Origin: a virus
IMG/VR virus record: IMGVR_UViG_3300045921_000191
Coordinates: 1 to 64,000 of that record
Reading direction: 5' to 3' (one strand)
DNA: 64,000 nucleotides
The notes below the pieces were generated by a model. That model was not told where the DNA came from. It worked only from the letters and a program-made list of their open reading frames with translations, and searched no databases. Position 1 is the stretch's first letter; the number at the start of each line of letters is the position of its first letter. The translations under genes and the position numbers were made by a program. Of the stretch, positions 10,568 through 45,773 are shown piece after piece.

Positions 10568-10863
10568 GAACGATCTTCCAAATATTGCCGAAGCTCAGCA
10601 ATGAATGCTGGGCCTTTCTCTTTCAGTAAGGTAATAGCTGTTTTATTCTCTTTGTGTGGGATTGGTTTAGTTATAAACTCCAAAGTCTCTTGGAGAGTGA
10701 ATCCGAATTCCAGTTTATTTCCATAAGCAAGGAAATGAACCAATTCAATTAAGTCTTTTTCAAATCGGGACAGTTTTACAGCAGACGAAGGTCTTTTAGG
10801 ACTAACCGCATTTGATTGTCCACGTTCGATAGAACTTTTTGGCCTTGTTCGTCTTTTGTGCAT
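10564..10863 (-). CDS. hypothetical protein, 99 aa
   Basis: The start overlaps the end of the Rrf2-like gene by 88 bases in another frame, but a textbook ribosome site (AAGGAGACAAAGTT) sits before the ATG. The N-terminal 30 residues are very basic (MHKRRTRPKSSIERGQ) and probably unstructured. The remainder is helical (LSRFEKDLIELVHFLAYGNK; ITLLKEKGPAFIAELRQYL). It might bind nucleic acid or the regulator encoded just upstream. No family recognised. Confidence 0.55.
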   Translation of the reverse strand: MHKRRTRPKSSIERGQSNAVSPKRPSSAVKLSRFEKDLIELVHFLAYGNKLEFGFTLQETLEFITKPIPHKENKTAITLLKEKGPAFIAELRQYLEDRS

Positions 10864-11123
10864 AACTTTGTCTCCTTGGTGCTATAAAGTGCATTGTTCA
10901 CATCTAACACGTTAATCTCTTTTTTCTTTTGAACATATCCACCGCCAGGACCTTTTTTAGAAGTAATAAGACCTTCCATGCGAAGAAGTCTAGCAATTTG
11001 AGCCATGAAGTAAGAGCTAATCTTATACTCTTTCGCGAGCACGGCTATTCTAACTGGCTCCCCTCTTGACTTCCTAACCGCGTTTAGCAGCAAGATTGCA
11101 TATTGAAACTTAACGTCTAACAT
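10776..11123 (-). CDS. Rrf2-family transcription regulator, 115 aa
   Basis: The product has the Rrf2 winged-helix layout: YAILLLNAVRKSRGEPVRIA, recognition helix region ISSYFMAQIARLLRMEGLI, then SKKGPGGGYVQKKK, where GPGGGY is the family's wing motif. Bacterial Rrf2 proteins such as IscR, NsrR and CymR often use three cysteines to hold an Fe-S cluster; here only one Cys lies in the corresponding region, so a cluster sensor is unlikely. The likely role is regulation of phage or host genes. The ATG follows ACAGGAGTAATT, 2 nt after the protease gene's stop, so it is at the end of the leftward cluster starting at 13790. Confidence 0.65.
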   Translation of the reverse strand: MLDVKFQYAILLLNAVRKSRGEPVRIAVLAKEYKISSYFMAQIARLLRMEGLITSKKGPGGGYVQKKKEINVLDVNNALYSTKETKLCTKDEQGQKVLSNVDNQMRLVLKDLRLL

Positions 11124-11125
11124 AA

Positions 11126-11842
11126 TTACTCCTGTAAAACTCCAAATTGTCTCAAAAACAATCGTACATGTGATAAAGGAACATACATTCCTAAATCTGG
11201 CTCTCTAGATCTACTAGACGAAGCCATTCTAGCAACAATTCCTACTAATTCGTTATCTTCATTAAATACTCCAGACCCTGAAGCTCCTGGACGAACTTTA
11301 ATTTTAGCAACAGTGTGTTGCATACTATCTGCGTAATCTTTACCAATCACTTCACCGTATTCAGTAGTACCTTCTTGTCCGAAAGGCGAGCCGTGAGTAT
11401 AAATCTTTTGTTGCGGTTTGGCGGGCTCTTTAGCAAGTTTTACTACAGCTAGATTTTTAGCTTCCAGATGAATAAGGCATAAATCTGAATTTAAAGCTAC
11501 CGAAATAATTTGTCCAACAATAGGCCGCTTATTCATAGGCTTTGCAAATACCAATACAAAACTAGCAACTGGAATTTTCTGATCTTTAAGTTCTTTAGAA
11601 GTTTGTCGAGAGCCATGACATACGTGTTTATTGGTGACGATTAGAGATCCATCAGAATCCGATTTAACAACCACTCCACTGCCTTGGCCATGTCTAGTTA
11701 GTATAGTATAGGTAGCATCTTTGACGTTTTGAAGACCGTTTGCTTTAGCGGCCTCAGAGTATCCTGCTGAGATCATTCCTAGGCCTAAACCTGAAGAGAA
11801 TAATAGAGAAGACGATATTAATATGGATTTTAACTTTTTCAT
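11126..11842 (-). CDS. secreted trypsin-like serine protease, 238 aa
   Basis: An N-terminal hydrophobic signal (MKKLKSILISSSLLFSSGLG) is followed by a chymotrypsin-fold domain with the catalytic triad in order: TNKHVC (His73), NSDLCLI (Asp120) and RPGASGSGVF (Ser188 in GASG). The spacing matches HtrA/trypsin-like proteases but no PDZ domain follows. It should act in the periplasm or outside the cell. Such a protease is unusual for a phage; possible targets are envelope proteins during infection or host defence factors. Ribosome site AAAGGAACCA. It lies in a cluster with ClpP-like and FKBP-like genes. Confidence 0.75.
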   Translation of the reverse strand: MKKLKSILISSSLLFSSGLGLGMISAGYSEAAKANGLQNVKDATYTILTRHGQGSGVVVKSDSDGSLIVTNKHVCHGSRQTSKELKDQKIPVASFVLVFAKPMNKRPIVGQIISVALNSDLCLIHLEAKNLAVVKLAKEPAKPQQKIYTHGSPFGQEGTTEYGEVIGKDYADSMQHTVAKIKVRPGASGSGVFNEDNELVGIVARMASSSRSREPDLGMYVPLSHVRLFLRQFGVLQE

Positions 11843-12099: not shown

Positions 12100-12672
12100 C
12101 TATTCCTCTGTTCCTACGACTTTATCTGCTAGACCCAGCGCTACTGCTTGCTTCGCTTCCAAGATAAAATCGGTTCCACATTTCTTTTCCCAGTATGAAG
12201 TGGGCTTTCCAGATTTCTCAGCATAAATTTCATACATACGTTTTCTAATGATTTTAGAATGCTTTGCCCAGGCTTCAAAGTCGCGAGTATTTCCAACATA
12301 TCCATCGCTACCGTCATGAATCATGAAAGTAACTCCTGGATGCAGAATTCGCTCATCTGCGGCTTGAAGTATTACAGTGGCCATGGACATACAATTACCA
12401 TAAACTTCTATAGTAATATGCGCTGGACAAGCCTTAATAGCATCATAAATTGCCATGCCATGAGTCCAATATCCACCAGCAGAGTTAAGAATAAGCCTAA
12501 TCTCTTTACCAGCATCAGCAGTAACAAATAGGTGCAACGCCTTAATGACCCTTTCGGCCATCAAAGCGTCAACACCATCTTCAGACGCGTCTCCGACAAA
12601 GATTGTGCGCGTTTCCGTATGCAAATCATAGTCAAAGAATCTATCAATTGAATCTTTAGGAAGACGCGCCAT
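12100..12672 (-). CDS. ClpP-like serine protease, 190 aa
   Basis: The ClpP/crotonase fold is clear: a beta strand then ILNSAGGYWTHGMAIYDAIK (oxyanion and binding strand), the nucleophile in YGNCMSMATVILQAAD (Ser96), the catalytic His in TFMIHDGS (His119) and a C-terminal GTDF-to-GLADKVV segment where the Asp is expected. Length is close to bacterial ClpP (about 195). In phages, ClpP-like proteins often serve as prohead protease; free proteolysis with a host Clp ATPase is the alternative. Here it lies beside FKBP-like and trypsin-like genes and away from the portal, so either role is open. Confidence 0.75.
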   Translation of the reverse strand: MARLPKDSIDRFFDYDLHTETRTIFVGDASEDGVDALMAERVIKALHLFVTADAGKEIRLILNSAGGYWTHGMAIYDAIKACPAHITIEVYGNCMSMATVILQAADERILHPGVTFMIHDGSDGYVGNTRDFEAWAKHSKIIRKRMYEIYAEKSGKPTSYWEKKCGTDFILEAKQAVALGLADKVVGTEE

Positions 12673-12686
12673 TTTGAACCCCGTTC

Positions 12687-13241
12687 TTATGCTTCTTGAC
12701 CTTGATCAACTTCTTCAGTTTTAGATTTAGATTTCTCAGCAGCTTCTCTAGCAAGCTTGGCTTGAAGAGCTTGAACAGCGCTTTCGCCTTCGCGGAAGAC
12801 TTTAATGACTTGAACAAAAAAGTTAACGGTTTTGCTAGCAAGTTCAGGAGAATAATTTTCAGGGAAAGTGATTTTAAGATTAGCAGTTTCTCCAGCTTTC
12901 AATCCGATAAGTTGTTCTTCAAATCCAGGAACAAAACCGTTGGAACCAATCTCAACTGCTGCACCAAAATCAGTGCCGCCTTTGAAAGTTTCACCAAGAG
13001 TACCATCCTCGTTAACCAATTGGCCAAGATAGTCCACCAAAACAGTGTCACCTTTAGCCGCTGCTTCAGAAGTTTCAGAAGCGCGAAGAGTATTAGCAAT
13101 GCCCTGAATTGTATGAGAAAGTTGACGAACATTCTGAATAGCTTGCATCGCAGTATTAACTGCGAATTGAGCACGACCTTGAATATTATCTTGCACTTCT
13201 CGTTTAGTCATTGCCTGTTTGTTTTTGTTAAATCCGCTCAT
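12687..13241 (-). CDS. FKBP-type peptidyl-prolyl isomerase, trigger-factor-like, 184 aa
   Basis: Residues about 62-150 form an FKBP domain: GDTVLVDYLGQLVNEDG, then FKGGTDFGAAVEIGSNGFVP, then GFEEQLIGLKAGETANLKIT and FPENYSPELA. The order and the GFEEQLIGLKAGE motif match the isomerase domain of trigger factor and SlyD-type FKBPs. The N-terminal 60 residues are helical and Gln-rich; the tail is charged (KSKSKTEEVDQGQEA). It probably catalyses proline isomerisation or chaperones phage structural proteins. Phage-encoded FKBPs are rare. The start follows AAGGAGATAATA. It lies directly upstream of the ClpP-like gene in the transcript. Confidence 0.75.
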   Translation of the reverse strand: MSGFNKNKQAMTKREVQDNIQGRAQFAVNTAMQAIQNVRQLSHTIQGIANTLRASETSEAAAKGDTVLVDYLGQLVNEDGTLGETFKGGTDFGAAVEIGSNGFVPGFEEQLIGLKAGETANLKITFPENYSPELASKTVNFFVQVIKVFREGESAVQALQAKLAREAAEKSKSKTEEVDQGQEA

Positions 13242-39885: not shown

Positions 39886-41052
39886 TCAGTCTCCTTTTTG
39901 GTGCTTAGGTTTGATCTCTTTTATTTTATCAAGCGGCTTACCGTTCCAACAGTGATCATAAAATTCACAGCGCCGACCATATTGCATACAGCTATTAGGA
40001 TTTTTAAAGTTAATCTCGTTTTTCACTGCTACTAGAACATTTGAATAGTCTTCCATCTGGGAATCCAGCTCAGACTCTTTCATAGTTTTAGTAAGCAATT
40101 GACAAACAGCTTTTAACTTAGGGATCAAATAAGAGCCTTTACAATCTTTTTGAGTACAATTTCTAGCTTTGCTACCGTGAGGTCGAACGTGTCCGCAAGT
40201 GTCGCAGCTAACCGAGTCGTTCTTCAATTTCTTGACAAGAACAAGGTAGCCTACATCTAATGAACCGATCTTCTTACTAAGCGCTGAAGCGTACGTTTTT
40301 AATTGTTCACTCGTATTGATATTATGGGAAGTATACTCTGCTGCGGCAGTTTTGCAATCTAAAACTACAGGAAACTCTTTACTCTTAAATTTAACTACGT
40401 AATCCACGTATCCGACAATCTCATCGCCGTCGTTATTGGTAATAGAAACTCTATATTGACAAGCAGGGACTCCATCGATCTCTACCAGATATTCAAAATC
40501 TGGCATAATATCATTCCACAATGCGGTCAGCATTAGAGCTGCTCGTTCTGCTAGAGATAGCCAGTGAATTCTTGCATAAAAGCGTTTTCGTTCCAAGCTA
40601 ACTTTATATCCGTTATCGAAGTCTGAATAAATCTCTGCAATAATAGACTGCCAAGTAACTACTTTAGCTTTGCCGTCTTTATCTGGACGAGTAGCGTTAA
40701 ACTCTTCTGGAACTAATTCCGTTGCCCAATCTTTGATAAGATCGGCATGTTGAACCAATAATGACTCGTCTAAGTCTGATTTAAAGTATTCTACTTCTGG
40801 ATTATCAAAAATTGGAGAAGCTCTGGATGGCTGATCTACGTTCTCGGTTTCCCAGTTACGATCAAACTCTGCAATGGAATCTTTCAAATCGGCGCCCTTG
40901 AACATAGCAGTAACGCCCGCCTCGACAGCCGTTCCAAATGCAAAGTACGAGGGACGGCCAGTTGACTGGTACTGTTTTGAAAGATAGTACTTAGTAGGAC
41001 ACGCCTTAAACGTGTTGGCCGCTGAGTAGCTTAATTTGACTGGCTTACTCAT
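39886..41052 (-). CDS. PD-(D/E)XK nuclease, Cas4/RecB-like, 388 aa
   Basis: LSYSAANTFKACPTKYYLSK at the start and NSCMQYGRRCEFYDHCW near the end are the split Cys set (one plus three) of Cas4/AddB-type Fe-S nucleases. The catalytic core is IVGYVDYVVKFKSKEFPVVL, then DCKTAAAEY (Asp and D-x-K motif). An internal zinc-finger-like insert (CDTCGHVRPHGSKARNC, then CTQKDC) precedes the C-terminal part. It should resect DNA ends to give ssDNA for the annealing protein or RecA-like recombinase. The start overlaps the GroEL stop. Confidence 0.75.
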   Translation of the reverse strand: MSKPVKLSYSAANTFKACPTKYYLSKQYQSTGRPSYFAFGTAVEAGVTAMFKGADLKDSIAEFDRNWETENVDQPSRASPIFDNPEVEYFKSDLDESLLVQHADLIKDWATELVPEEFNATRPDKDGKAKVVTWQSIIAEIYSDFDNGYKVSLERKRFYARIHWLSLAERAALMLTALWNDIMPDFEYLVEIDGVPACQYRVSITNNDGDEIVGYVDYVVKFKSKEFPVVLDCKTAAAEYTSHNINTSEQLKTYASALSKKIGSLDVGYLVLVKKLKNDSVSCDTCGHVRPHGSKARNCTQKDCKGSYLIPKLKAVCQLLTKTMKESELDSQMEDYSNVLVAVKNEINFKNPNSCMQYGRRCEFYDHCWNGKPLDKIKEIKPKHQKGD

Positions 41053-42713
41053 TCCAGTCCCATCATAGCCAAGGGATTAGGCTTACCTTCGTTTGAGCTA
41101 GCGGCAAGAACTACCGCACCACCCGTGGTTAGTAGTAGGCCAGCAATTGATACTGCGTTCTCAAGAGCAGATTTGGCCACTTTTGCTGGATCAACAATTC
41201 CAGATTCCAAAAGATTGCAAAAGACTTTACGCCTAGCGTCAAATCCTTTGCCAAGTTCAGTCGATCCTAATTGATGAAGGATTACCGCAGGATCAAGGCC
41301 AGTATTAGTAATGATTTGTTTAATCGGTGCTTGAAGAGCTTCTTGCATGATCTTTCCAGCAATCGTATTGGTATTGATTTCTTTTGAAATCTCAAAGAAA
41401 GTCGATCCTCCGCCTGGAAGAATACCTTCTTGAATAGCCACGCGAGCTGCACAAAGCGCGTCCTCGATACGATCTTTTTTCTCAAGCATCTCAAGTTCGG
41501 TCTCACCGCCTGCGCGAATAATAGCAATACCGCCTACAAGCTTACCAATTCGGATACGAAGATTTTCTTGATCGAATTCGTATTGTTTAATCTCAAGGCC
41601 CTTTTTAAGATCATCCACGCGAGATAGAATTGCTTCCTCATCACCTGCACCTTTAAAAATCACAGTCTCTTCTGATCCAACTTCAACTTTATCGCAAGAA
41701 CCTAAATCGTCAGAAGAACCATCTTTTAGTTCTCTAATTCCTTTAGAAAAAACTTTACCGCCTGTAAGAACCGCGATGTCTTCCAAAATCTCAGTGATTG
41801 CATTGGGACTTCCGTCAAATGGAGCTTTGATAGCTACGATTGGAAGTTTACCTTGAACTCGGTTAGCTAGGAGCATGTTCTTTACGTCATCTGAGAAATC
41901 AGAAGCGATAATAAGAAATGGAACTGGTTTTTGAATTTGACCACTTTGAGGGTCAACTTCCATTACACTCATCATGAGTTTTGCAAGCTCATGAAGCTCT
42001 GAAAGTTTGCCGTTATAAAGAAGCACTGCTGGCTTCTCTAGCTGCGCACAGTCTTTAACCTTGTCAGTAACAAAGTGTGTTCCGAATGGTCCAAAAGACT
42101 TCCAGCCCTTTTTGTAGACCGCACCTTGTACGACACTCAACTCAGTATGACGTGAGTTGGCGTCCTCGACTGTAACGTGCCCATCTTCTCCGACTTGCTC
42201 TAGAGCATCGGAAACGATTTGAGCGATCTCTTCTTCTCCGTTCGCGGAGATTTTAGCAACGTTATAAACGTCCTTGAGACCCACTGGGATTTTACGCTCA
42301 TCGATTTTTGCGATGATTTCGTTTTTAATAGCTTTGAGTTCGTCGTAAAGCTGAATACCGTTCATTCCACGAGCGAGTTGCGAATAGCCAGCTTTAAAAA
42401 TAGCTTCGGCAAGTACAATGGCGGTAGTCGTTCCGTCGCCAGCTTGATTTACGGTATTCTTAGCAACTTGAAGAACGGCTTTAGCTATGGTGGACATAGC
42501 GTGATCTTTAAAATCTACAGATTCAGCGACAGTCACTCCGTCTTTAGTAATGAGTGGTCCGATTGGCGAGCCGTCTGAATTTTGCCCAGTGCGCTGGATA
42601 ATAATAGGATTCCCACCTGGGCCTAGGGTCGCTTTAACAACGCTTGCCATCTCTTCTACAGCAGCGAGAGCTTTCTTTTTGGAAGCATCAGAACTGAGAA
42701 TTGTCTTGCTCAT
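41049..42713 (-). CDS. GroEL-type chaperonin, 554 aa
   Basis: Full-length group I chaperonin: VVKATLGPGGNPIIIQ, the ATP motif GDGTTTAIVLAEAI with its Asp, KISANGEEEIAQIVSDAL, IRAGGETELEMLEKKDRIED and ALCAARVAIQEGILPGGG. Length is like E. coli GroEL (548). The C-terminus ends NPLAMMGLE rather than the usual Gly-Gly-Met repeat. No GroES-like gene is visible in the window, so it may work alone, as the known phiEL chaperonin does, or use the host GroES. It probably folds phage structural proteins. The start overlaps the upstream small gene (ATGA). Confidence 0.92.
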   Translation of the reverse strand: MSKTILSSDASKKKALAAVEEMASVVKATLGPGGNPIIIQRTGQNSDGSPIGPLITKDGVTVAESVDFKDHAMSTIAKAVLQVAKNTVNQAGDGTTTAIVLAEAIFKAGYSQLARGMNGIQLYDELKAIKNEIIAKIDERKIPVGLKDVYNVAKISANGEEEIAQIVSDALEQVGEDGHVTVEDANSRHTELSVVQGAVYKKGWKSFGPFGTHFVTDKVKDCAQLEKPAVLLYNGKLSELHELAKLMMSVMEVDPQSGQIQKPVPFLIIASDFSDDVKNMLLANRVQGKLPIVAIKAPFDGSPNAITEILEDIAVLTGGKVFSKGIRELKDGSSDDLGSCDKVEVGSEETVIFKGAGDEEAILSRVDDLKKGLEIKQYEFDQENLRIRIGKLVGGIAIIRAGGETELEMLEKKDRIEDALCAARVAIQEGILPGGGSTFFEISKEINTNTIAGKIMQEALQAPIKQIITNTGLDPAVILHQLGSTELGKGFDARRKVFCNLLESGIVDPAKVAKSALENAVSIAGLLLTTGGAVVLAASSNEGKPNPLAMMGLE

Positions 42714-42997: not shown

Positions 42998-44650
42998 GTG
43001 ATAAAGATAACAGTTTCTAACTCATATTGTCAAGTGGAAAACTCGACGACTTTTCAGGATGAGAAGTTTGCGAAGGAATTGTCGTATCTTGATCAGAATG
43101 TTAATTTTCAATACAACAAAAACCTAAGATACATCAAAAGCTTAAATGACAAGATTTCGTCGGATCGTTATAACTCAGCCGCTAAAGTAGGCTTTCAGAG
43201 TGAACTAAAAAGAATGCTATTCTTAACTCGCGAGCTTGAAAAGGCTCGCGTTATCTTTCTTTATAAAAATAAGAAGTTCCCTTCTGGACTTTTGCCCAGA
43301 TTCCTTGACTATTTATATTCTGAAAAAATAGACGTAGAAGTTCTTGACAAACGTAAAAAGCCTAAAACTAATCAAATTAAATTCGTGACTCAAAAGCCTC
43401 TGCCACAACTTCGTTACTGCCAAAAAGATGCCGTGAAACTCGCTGTTAGCGAGGGTCGTGGAATTCTAGTAATGCCAACTGGAGTTGGTAAGACAGTAAC
43501 TGCGGTTAAGATTGTCTGGGAACTAGGTCTTCCTACTTTGTTCGTGGCTCCTAGTAAATCAATTGCTGAAATGATGTTTGACACTATGACTGAGTTTTTT
43601 GGTAAAGGGAAAGTGGAAAAGATCACCTCGAAGACCAAAGTCACTAAGAAGCCAATTGGCATCTGTAATATTCAAGGACTTATCAAGGTTCCACCTTCAG
43701 CCGTGAAACAGTTTCAAGTAGTTGTAATTGATGAATTTCATCATTGTCTAGTAGGTGGGACTAAGCTTTTTACTGATAAAGGGGTAAAAAGTATTAAACA
43801 AGTCTTTGATTTTGAAGAGGAGATTAAAGTATTAAGCTTTGACAAACAAGCCAAGCAGTTTGAATTTAAAAAGGTTTTGAATAAATTTGAATACAACGCT
43901 CCTACCAGCTTTATTAAAATCCATTTAGATAATGGTAAAAAGTTAGTTCTTACAGAAGACCATTTAGTATTAACGAATACAGGTTATAAAAAAGCAAAAG
44001 AACTCAAATGCACCGATATTCTAATCGACGGTAAATATACGTGCTTTATTTGCAATAAAAATTTTGAAGATGAGTGTTCTTTAGGCGGTCATATAGCTGG
44101 GCACTTGACTCCTACGGAAGTTAAATTGGAAAATGCTAAACGAATGCTAGCGAGTCCAAATTGGAATTCAGAAAAGGCTAGAAAATTAAATAGCAAATCT
44201 AAAATGGGTGATAAAAATCCTTCAAAAAGGCCAGAAGTTAGAAAGAAAAAAAGCGAATCTCAAAAGCGCTGGTTTAACTCCCTATCTTCTGAGGAAAAAG
44301 CTTGGAGAATTCAAACATTCGTAAATGCACCACTTCAAGGACTTAGAAAAGGTCCTACCTCTTTGGAAAGAAGAATCATAGAATTAAATATTAAGGATCT
44401 TAGATTTGTTGGAGACGGAAGTTTGTGGTTTAAATCTAAAAATAGATATCTAAATCCAGATTTCATAAAAGGAAATAAAGTTATTGAAGTAGGAGATGTG
44501 GAATTTTGGCATTCACAGGAAGATATAGAAGAAAGAATCAAATTACTAGCTAATGTAGGTCTAGAGTGTTTATATCTCACTTCTGATCAATTAAAATTGT
44601 TAAATAATGATGATCTTAAGAAAGTTGTACAGGAATATCTAAATGGCTAA
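42998..44650 (+). CDS. UvsW-like helicase N-part + intein N-half + Vsr-like homing endonuclease, 550 aa
   Basis: Residues 1-249 are the N-terminal half of a superfamily 2 helicase of UvsW/Rad25 type: LRYCQKDAVKLAV, Walker A PTGVGKT (160-166), and VVVIDEFHH (241-249), where the sequence is interrupted inside the DExH box. From Cys250 it is intein: CLVGGTKLFTDKGVKSI (block A) and GKKLVLTEDHLVL (block B, Thr319/His322). Then follow a C2H2 finger (Cys349, Cys352, His365, His369), a NUMOD3-like motif MGDKNPSKRPEVR (about 403-415) and a Vsr-like nuclease (LNPDF, VIEVGDVEFWH, 485-505). It starts at GTG with no ribosome site and ends in overlap with the gene for the other half. Confidence 0.85.
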   Translation: MIKITVSNSYCQVENSTTFQDEKFAKELSYLDQNVNFQYNKNLRYIKSLNDKISSDRYNSAAKVGFQSELKRMLFLTRELEKARVIFLYKNKKFPSGLLPRFLDYLYSEKIDVEVLDKRKKPKTNQIKFVTQKPLPQLRYCQKDAVKLAVSEGRGILVMPTGVGKTVTAVKIVWELGLPTLFVAPSKSIAEMMFDTMTEFFGKGKVEKITSKTKVTKKPIGICNIQGLIKVPPSAVKQFQVVVIDEFHHCLVGGTKLFTDKGVKSIKQVFDFEEEIKVLSFDKQAKQFEFKKVLNKFEYNAPTSFIKIHLDNGKKLVLTEDHLVLTNTGYKKAKELKCTDILIDGKYTCFICNKNFEDECSLGGHIAGHLTPTEVKLENAKRMLASPNWNSEKARKLNSKSKMGDKNPSKRPEVRKKKSESQKRWFNSLSSEEKAWRIQTFVNAPLQGLRKGPTSLERRIIELNIKDLRFVGDGSLWFKSKNRYLNPDFIKGNKVIEVGDVEFWHSQEDIEERIKLLANVGLECLYLTSDQLKLLNNDDLKKVVQEYLNG

Positions 44651-45473
44651 GATTTTGAAAATAGAAAGAATTGCAAATTCTTACGAACTAGATCAATACA
44701 GAACTCGTCGCATTTATTCTAAAGTATACGATATCGAAGTAGAAAAGAATTCAAATTTTGTTGCAAATGGAATAGTAGTTCATAACTCAGCCGCTGAAAC
44801 ATATCAAGAGGTTAACGAGAAGCTTTTGAACGAGGCCTACTTCCGCATTGGTCTAACGGCCACTAACTTCAGGAACGACGGCGCAGATCTTGCACTAGAG
44901 GCTGTTTTGAGCGAAGTCCTTTATGAATATACGGTTAAGCAAGCTTTTGAAGATGGCTTCTTGGTTAGGCCCAAATTTAACATTATACCTATCTCATTCC
45001 CCTCTGAGGGCAAATATCAGGACGTTTACCGCCAAGGTATCGTTGAGAACGTTCAGCGCAACAGAGTCATCTCAGAGCTTGCTATAGAGCATAAGAAAGA
45101 CTCTGTGATTATTTTAGTTCAACAAATTGAACATGGGGAATTGTTAAAAGGTTTGATTCCAGGTTCAGAGTTTATTAATGGTCAGGAAAAAGACACCATG
45201 CGTCAGAAGGCTATGGCCGACTTTCGTAAAGGAAAGCTCAAGTGTTTGATTGGTACTTCAGTGATTGGAGAAGGTGTTGACCTTCCAATTGCAAACGTGC
45301 TCATCATGGCTGGTGGTGGAAAGGCCAGGAGTCAGATCATTCAGAATATCGGTAGAGTATTAAGACTTTATCCTGGTAAAGATGGTGCTTTGATTTACGA
45401 CTTCACAGATCAAGATGGCTCGTTTCTTCAAGAGCATTCAATGCTTCGTCGTGAAGTTTATTCAGGATATTAA
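44643..45473 (+). CDS. intein C-half + UvsW-like helicase C-part, 276 aa
   Basis: Residues 1-48 are a split-intein C-half: after MAKILKIERI, block F reads VYDIEVEKNSNFVANGIVVHN with the terminal His47-Asn48; Ser49 is the first residue after the splice point. Residues 49-276 complete the helicase: SAAETYQEVNEKLL, RIGLTATNF (motif III), a RecA2 domain, GTSVIGEGVDLP (motif V) and IIQNIGRVLRLYPG (motif VI). Joined after splicing, the junction reads VIDEFHH-SAAETY, restoring an intact DExH box in a protein of about 477 residues. The ATG overlaps the upstream stop by 8 bases; AGGAA lies 7 nt before it. Confidence 0.85.
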   Translation: MAKILKIERIANSYELDQYRTRRIYSKVYDIEVEKNSNFVANGIVVHNSAAETYQEVNEKLLNEAYFRIGLTATNFRNDGADLALEAVLSEVLYEYTVKQAFEDGFLVRPKFNIIPISFPSEGKYQDVYRQGIVENVQRNRVISELAIEHKKDSVIILVQQIEHGELLKGLIPGSEFINGQEKDTMRQKAMADFRKGKLKCLIGTSVIGEGVDLPIANVLIMAGGGKARSQIIQNIGRVLRLYPGKDGALIYDFTDQDGSFLQEHSMLRREVYSGY

Positions 45474-45773
45474 AAGGTAAGCTATAGCTTTATTTAGAAG
45501 CTTTTCGCTGTCTTTAAACATTCCTAGACCTACGTTGCATTTTCTGCACAATAGGCCTCTAGTTTTGCCAGACTGGCGATTGTGATCTATACAGATCTTA
45601 TCTTTTGGAACAAAATCTTCGCAGATAGCGCATTTTCCTAGCTGAATTTCATACATTTTTTCAAAGTCTTCAAGACTGATCTTATATAGGTTTTTTAATT
45701 TAGACTTCCTGGCAGCTTTGGCTTGCGCAAGCGCAGGACGTTTGGAACACGATTTACACCAAGACTGTAAACC
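45462..45773 (-). pseudogene. 5'-truncated endonuclease VII-type HNH nuclease
   Basis: The frame from ATG 45656 encodes 64 residues: MYEIQLGKCAICEDFVPKDK, then ICIDHNRQSGKTRGLLCRKC and NVGLGMF, the endonuclease VII HNH core (C-x-x-C, D-H, C-x-x-C). Homologous-looking sequence continues upstream in frame without a start codon (GLQSWCKSCSKRPALAQAKA; LKNLYKISLEDFEKM) to a stop at 45774-45776, with the CKSC pair typical of these proteins, but the further N-terminus is missing. The remnant lies between the terminator of the tail operon and the split helicase gene, which suggests a decayed homing endonuclease. Confidence 0.65.

Follow-up and report, generated by a model that had tools for sequence, protein, structure and literature searches.

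How a phage might obtain an intact helicase from a gene that breaks off within its ATPase active site, and continues instead into half an intein and a homing endonuclease, is the question raised by a 64,000-nt stretch of DNA (the window), which is part of a 110,655-bp IMG/VR virus record (IMGVR_UViG_3300045921_000191). Two overlapping open reading frames (ORFs) on the plus strand make up the locus: ORF N (42998-44650; 550 aa; GTG start, TAA stop at 44648-44650) and ORF C (44643-45473; 276 aa), which lies in the +1 frame relative to ORF N. These limits, as well as Cys250, Ser49 and the 8-bp overlap at 44643-44650, all match the values given in an earlier note on this DNA. Judging from the sequences, we consider it very probable that the locus represents a phage helicase gene fractured at a natural split intein, with the homing endonuclease forming the C-terminal part of the precursor that carries the N-terminal intein half (IntN) rather than having a gene to itself, and that trans-splicing rebuilds the helicase.

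IntN spans residues 250-344 of ORF N (43745-44029, +), with block A CLVGGTKLF and block B LVLTEDHLVL, and was matched by TIGR01445 over residues 250-326 (E = 2.8 × 10−10; 41.1 bits vs. a cut-off of 24.5) and, when taken in isolation, by Intein_splicing PF14890 (36.0 bits vs. a cut-off of 35.8). The C-terminal half (IntC) comprises residues 1-48 of ORF C (44643-44786, +), with block F VYDIEVEKNSNFVANG and block G IVVHN, and was matched by TIGR01443 over residues 27-49 (E = 1.7 × 10−11; 44.0 bits vs. a cut-off of 15.6). The profile search that the earlier note had proposed for both halves thus places models for the two ends of an intein above cut-off at complementary positions, as expected from its claim of a split intein in helicase motif II. 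The residues required for splicing are present, namely, Cys250, the Thr and His of block B (LTEDH), His47-Asn48 and Ser49 at position +1, so that the pair has the sequence features of a class 1 split intein: a block A nucleophile, TxxH in block B, blocks F and G, and a +1 Ser. IntN and IntC belong to separate products encoded in different frames, with IntC in the +1 frame in an ORF of its own, rather than to one bifunctional cis-splicing intein. The overlap ATGGCTAA (44643-44650, +) consists of 8 bp that hold the ORF C start and the ORF N stop; a Shine-Dalgarno-like AGGA, read directly from the sequence, lies 8 nt 5' of the ORF C ATG (44631-44634, +), and in the IntC frame this ATG is directly preceded by TAA. 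Between IntN and IntC, the IntC frame contains 18 stop codons, which rules out readthrough, or a contiguous intein running out of frame, in the window. By its sequence, then, the combination of ORF N and ORF C is a split intein of the trans-splicing type.

The exteins are the two parts of a UvsW/XPB-like superfamily 2 (SF2) helicase. Residues 1-249 of ORF N (42998-43744, +; ResIII, 2.8 × 10−21; PHROG 16, DNA helicase) carry helicase motifs I-II and end at motif II, DEFHH, whereas the remainder of the helicase runs from the +1 Ser49 of ORF C to the stop codon (44787-45473, +; Helicase_C, 2.0 × 10−15; PHROG 16, 1.9 × 10−50). When residues 1-249 of ORF N were joined to residues 49-276 of ORF C, the resulting protein of 477 aa, with Walker A, the DExH motif II and a regained helicase C domain, aligned as one continuous sequence, junction included, with the intein-free helicases encoded by many phages, among them those of Bacillus phage vB_BpsS-140 and phage G (gp400), at 30% over 82%; the joined sequence has the length that the earlier note gave for the spliced protein (about 477 residues). 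The insert is A+T-richer than its host gene, given that the G+C content is 31% in IntN, 33% in the nuclease and 29% in IntC, compared to 38% and 43% in the two exteins, and the base composition of the entire insert is foreign. A group I intron or another known RNA element was ruled out, with no Rfam hit and no tRNA found.

Downstream of IntN, in the same frame and with no intervening stop, ORF N encodes a C2H2 zinc finger (CFIC..HIAGH, residues 347-369; 44036-44104, +), a NUMOD3-like DNA-binding stretch (GDKNPSKRPEVRKKKSE; 44132-44266, +) and an EDxHD (Vsr-like) nuclease domain of about 95 residues (44360-44650, +). The first two had been proposed in the earlier note and both were located, but the matches are weak: the finger reaches only E = 0.02-0.07 with zf-C2H2/zf-met, below the cut-off, and the sole match to the NUMOD3-like part is the HNH endonuclease profile PHROG 12434 (1.6 × 10−4). 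The same motif is present in the related locus L080 (related loci are denoted by L numbers). Half of the finger is kept as a stump in another relative, L019 (CPICNKLFDN vs. CFICNKNFED in the window). No Pfam model matches the nuclease, which was recognized by alignment, AlphaFold and Foldseek. Asp488 and Glu497 (D144 and E153 of a 206-aa fragment) are invariant in a 14-row alignment of nucleases from related loci, and the AlphaFold model of this fragment has a predicted local distance difference test (pLDDT) score of 82-97 across most of the nuclease domain; a model of the complete 550-aa ORF N (4 rows) had a pLDDT of 46 and was discarded. The top Foldseek match in the PDB is the catalytic domain of I-Bth0305I (3r3p; probability 1.00, E = 2.4 × 10−3, TM-score 0.62 by target length), followed by a small endonuclease-like Neisseria protein (3hrl; E = 0.11). 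On the basis of this modelled fold, which has a PD-(D/E)xK-like core, and of the Asp and Glu that the family conserves, the ORF N nuclease is assigned to the EDxHD, Vsr-like homing family. Both the in-frame position of a Vsr-like nuclease on the N-half and the length of about 300 residues predicted to follow the N-extein hold, the IntN-nuclease part of ORF N being 301 aa long.

Under the proposed mechanism, ribosomes would make precursor N (helicase residues 1-249, IntN and the nuclease) and, by coupled translation, restart at the overlapping ATG to make precursor C (IntC and the rest of the helicase). IntN would then capture IntC, and class 1 trans-splicing through Cys250, Asn48 and Ser49 would yield the 477-aa helicase along with a second product, the 301-aa IntN-nuclease fusion, released probably with IntC still bound. 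The predicted target of the nuclease is the helicase gene without an intein, which would be cut at the codons for DEFHH/S (the slash denotes the insertion point), and the whole insert would spread by homing. With motif II interrupted by the insert, chains that have not been spliced should be devoid of ATPase activity. If active, the system would be a natural split intein with a large C-terminal cargo on IntN, in which the nuclease is set free only after splicing repairs the helicase.

The layout is not confined to the window. Relatives were obtained from alignment-based and DNA-pattern scans, whereas scans of viral contigs with single sequences (ORF N or its nuclease) yielded no usable relatives. 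In L096, L175 and L176, homologous helicases are broken after DEFHH (DEFHH/S) and IntN shares its frame with the nuclease; the IntC ORF, with its start assigned by eye as the first ATG, overlaps by ~94 bp, ~91 bp and ~94 bp, respectively, and lies in the +2 frame (vs. +1 in the window), which is closed by 6-23 stops. The fused split layout also occurs in other genes (named here by reading the sequence): a radical-SAM/SPL-like gene in L080 (20-bp overlap), a head protein gene in L143 (4-bp overlap), and a DNA polymerase gene with an HNH nuclease in L157 (14-bp overlap). Two scans with IntC alignments, a sample biased toward IntC relatives of the window intein, gave 59 distinct split-intein loci. 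In 46 of these, IntN ends shortly, at least 400 nt before IntC, and most of those roomy loci that were read out contain a free-standing nuclease-like ORF (GIY-YIG, HNH or EDxHD); where the nuclease is free-standing, IntN usually ends within ~30 residues. Seven of the 59 loci have no room for a nuclease, one (L076) shows a partial fusion in which the frame is broken, and in 5 (the window, L096, L080, L143 and L157) the nuclease is fused to IntN. The contrast that the earlier note drew with the separate nucleases of other fractured genes holds, and because the layout recurs in other phages, it appears to be a real, rare variant of the fractured-gene arrangement.

Some further loci encountered in these scans carry related breaks. 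L099 (50-997) holds a helicase split at DE/CH, the IntC start of which (MAKILKIEKI) is nearly that of ORF C and the N-half of which is off the contig. L017 is a fractured DnaE-like polymerase gene with a free-standing multi-zinc-finger nuclease between the halves and an IntC that resembles that of the window, and L062 is a single DnaE-like gene with two successive split-intein breaks, so that the middle piece has IntC at its start and IntN at its end. In Bacillus phage G (L002, 2256-3254 and 3626-4915), gp221 and gp223, which are annotated separately, look like helicase halves separated at DE/CHH by a split-intein break, with a small ORF between them; the intein-free homologue in the same phage is gp400.

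Whether the split itself is genuine hinges on the overlap. The earlier note had named a sequencing error joining the frames as what would turn the locus into an ordinary cis-splicing intein, and a single-base error within the 8 bp is the only simple route to that outcome: one indel within 44643-44650 would bring the nuclease and IntC into one frame, in-frame canonical inteins with the same type of nuclease exist (L159), and no independent copy of the window junction was found in viral contigs. However, such an indel is confined to 8 bp, ORF C begins at an ATG of its own, accompanied by the AGGA and the directly adjoining TAA described above, and the split layout is independently present in L096, L175 and L176 with overlaps of ~91-94 bp, so that a contiguous bifunctional intein (IntN-nuclease-IntC) that only appears split through one assembly or sequencing indel strikes us as improbable. 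Programmed frameshifting, whereby some ribosomes would produce a contiguous IntN-nuclease-IntC precursor, could draw on the start/stop overlap and its +1 relation, but only 8 nt are available for the shift, no slippery sequence is evident, and both the length of the overlap and the frame relation (+1 or +2) vary among the relatives; we give this explanation almost no credence.

Granting a genuine fracture, the intein could still be dead, leaving a helicase composed of two non-covalent chains or none that functions. There is a precedent in a phage ribonucleotide reductase, in which insertion of a homing endonuclease resulted in a non-covalent two-piece enzyme (Friedrich et al., as cited in PMC10448857). 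Here, however, blocks A, B, F and G have lost none of their splicing residues, both halves clearly exceed the intein cut-offs, and with the break in motif II, the 301- and 48-residue chains left over would occupy the ATP site, making a dead intein a poor prospect. A separate nuclease initiated at an internal start in ORF N, which would behave as a free-standing enzyme, is compatible with trans-splicing and somewhat easier to entertain, albeit still unlikely: in-frame ATGs are found at 44144 and 44204, with GGAA ~12 nt upstream of the first, and the nucleases of related loci are as a rule free-standing or out of frame, but both ATGs lie 3' of the finger, neither has a good ribosome site, and IntN runs into the nuclease without a stop, which is not the case in loci with free-standing nucleases. 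Several observations count against a trans-splicing split intein with a fused nuclease. The window locus has no close relative; its nuclease is divergent, with 17-22% identity to the nucleases at the DEFHH/S site; the finger and NUMOD3 matches are, as noted, weak; and in L096 and L019, Ser replaces the His that precedes the terminal Asn, so that block G departs from the canonical form in some of the relatives. IntN and IntC do not show the opposite charges that would mark a natural split (+3 and +2).

The DEFHH/S site is found in other states as well. The search for intein-free alleles suggested in the earlier note succeeded, L097 and phiSA_BS1 being empty at the helicase junction. L019, which is 37% identical over the C-half, has a contiguous mini-intein without a nuclease at this site: its IntN runs into the finger stump CPICNKLFDN and then into MSKIKSIKRI, the Met of which aligns with the start Met of ORF C (MAKILKIERI). 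The simplest reading of these sequences is that L019 descends from a window-like form, the nuclease having been deleted and the gene repaired, although the order may have been the reverse. L177 has a contiguous intein at the same site, with a finger-NUMOD-EDxHD nuclease inside in the +1 frame. A tree built from 36 EDxHD domains places the fused nucleases of L096, L175 and L176 inside the clade formed by nucleases encoded out of frame ('nested'; starred branches), whereas the window nuclease is a long branch, placed weakly among free-standing nucleases. The fused state requires four changes on this tree, at least two of which are forced by the starred branches; hence, the nuclease-IntN fusion probably arose more than once. 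We regard as evenly balanced the broader proposal that the four layouts of related inteins at DEFHH/S (empty, the L019 mini-intein, the hidden nuclease of L177, and the fused split form) include a fused split form that arose at least twice, as an intermediate step between free-standing or hidden nucleases on one side and contiguous inteins on the other, with splicing freeing the nuclease. It has long been asked by what route nucleases enter inteins and how a contiguous intein comes to be split, and the arguments so far have drawn on separate end states, namely, contiguous inteins and fractured genes in which the nuclease is free-standing. The window locus and its relatives offer an intermediate state, and because several states occur at a single insertion site, the order of events becomes testable.

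Fractured genes in which a split intein is accompanied by a Vsr-like nuclease have been described before (Dassa et al. 2009, as cited in PMC3229294, PMC7090010 and PMC11766414). The gp41-1, NrdJ-1 and IMPDH-1 types share with the window a conserved gene of phage DNA metabolism that is broken at the site of an intein, a Vsr-like nuclease between the halves, and a split at the canonical nuclease position. In the fractured genes of the 2009 description by Dassa and colleagues, these three types included, the nuclease is reportedly a free-standing gene, whereas the window nuclease shares an ORF with IntN; the enzyme gene is indeed broken by a split intein with an endonuclease in between, but the endonuclease is not free-standing. 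The UvsW gene of Salmonella phage S16 (gp114, gp114.1 and gp115) is likewise fractured in motif II, its two halves flanking a nuclease that bears NUMOD3, and provides a precedent from a cultured phage for the free-standing form in this kind of gene; the insertion, at DE/CH, is three residues upstream and the nuclease is a separate gene. I-Bth0305I (3r3p), the nearest solved fold, has the same core with conserved Asp and Glu, but is only 22% identical over ~100 residues to the window nuclease, which is fused to IntN and has an added finger. Bifunctional contiguous inteins such as L159 have the nuclease in frame with IntN at an equal intein position, whereas in the window IntC is in a separate, overlapping ORF. 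The methylase genes of ShiLan and Pacc40 contain out-of-frame HNH insertions without a splicing domain (PMC11855218); these resemble the window in the unusual frame relation of a homing nuclease to its host gene, but differ in lacking the splicing domain and in the nuclease frame not being that of the host gene. For the related out-of-frame nucleases, the ShiLan insertion in PMC11855218 is a published parallel, minus the splicing domains. An in-frame IntN-nuclease fusion combined with a separate IntC is probably undescribed.

Nucleases hidden in the +1 frame inside a contiguous phage intein, as in L177, turned up at 19 loci (L142, L025, L079, L039, L032, L135, L035, L075, L138, L086, L064, L091, L063, L050, L082, L088, L046, L125 and L177), the nuclease being of the HNH or EDxHD type. 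The intein frame of these loci contains 0 stops vs. 5-16 predicted by synonymous-codon shuffling of the nuclease (P ≤ 5 × 10−4 for each). The same arrangement occurs in cultured phages, namely, Vibrio phage CP-T1 gp10 (L179), phi673 gp43 (L180), MR14 gp44 (L181), Gordonia phage Clown gp5 (L178) and the S-EIVl terminase (L182), all single annotated helicase or terminase genes for which the annotations shown do not name a nuclease; because these phages were cultured and sequenced, the hidden nuclease is not an assembly artefact.

In the window, the helicase C-half is followed tail to tail by a 64-aa endonuclease VII/HNH fragment (45462-45656, −; PF02945, 3 × 10−17), which covers its last 12 bp. 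Elsewhere, the window encodes a Cpn60 chaperonin (41049-42713), a ClpP-like protease (12100-12672), an FKBP-type isomerase (12687-13241), a trypsin-like protease (11126-11842) and an Rrf2-type regulator (10776-11123), a protein-quality-control gene set that is rich for a phage of this size.
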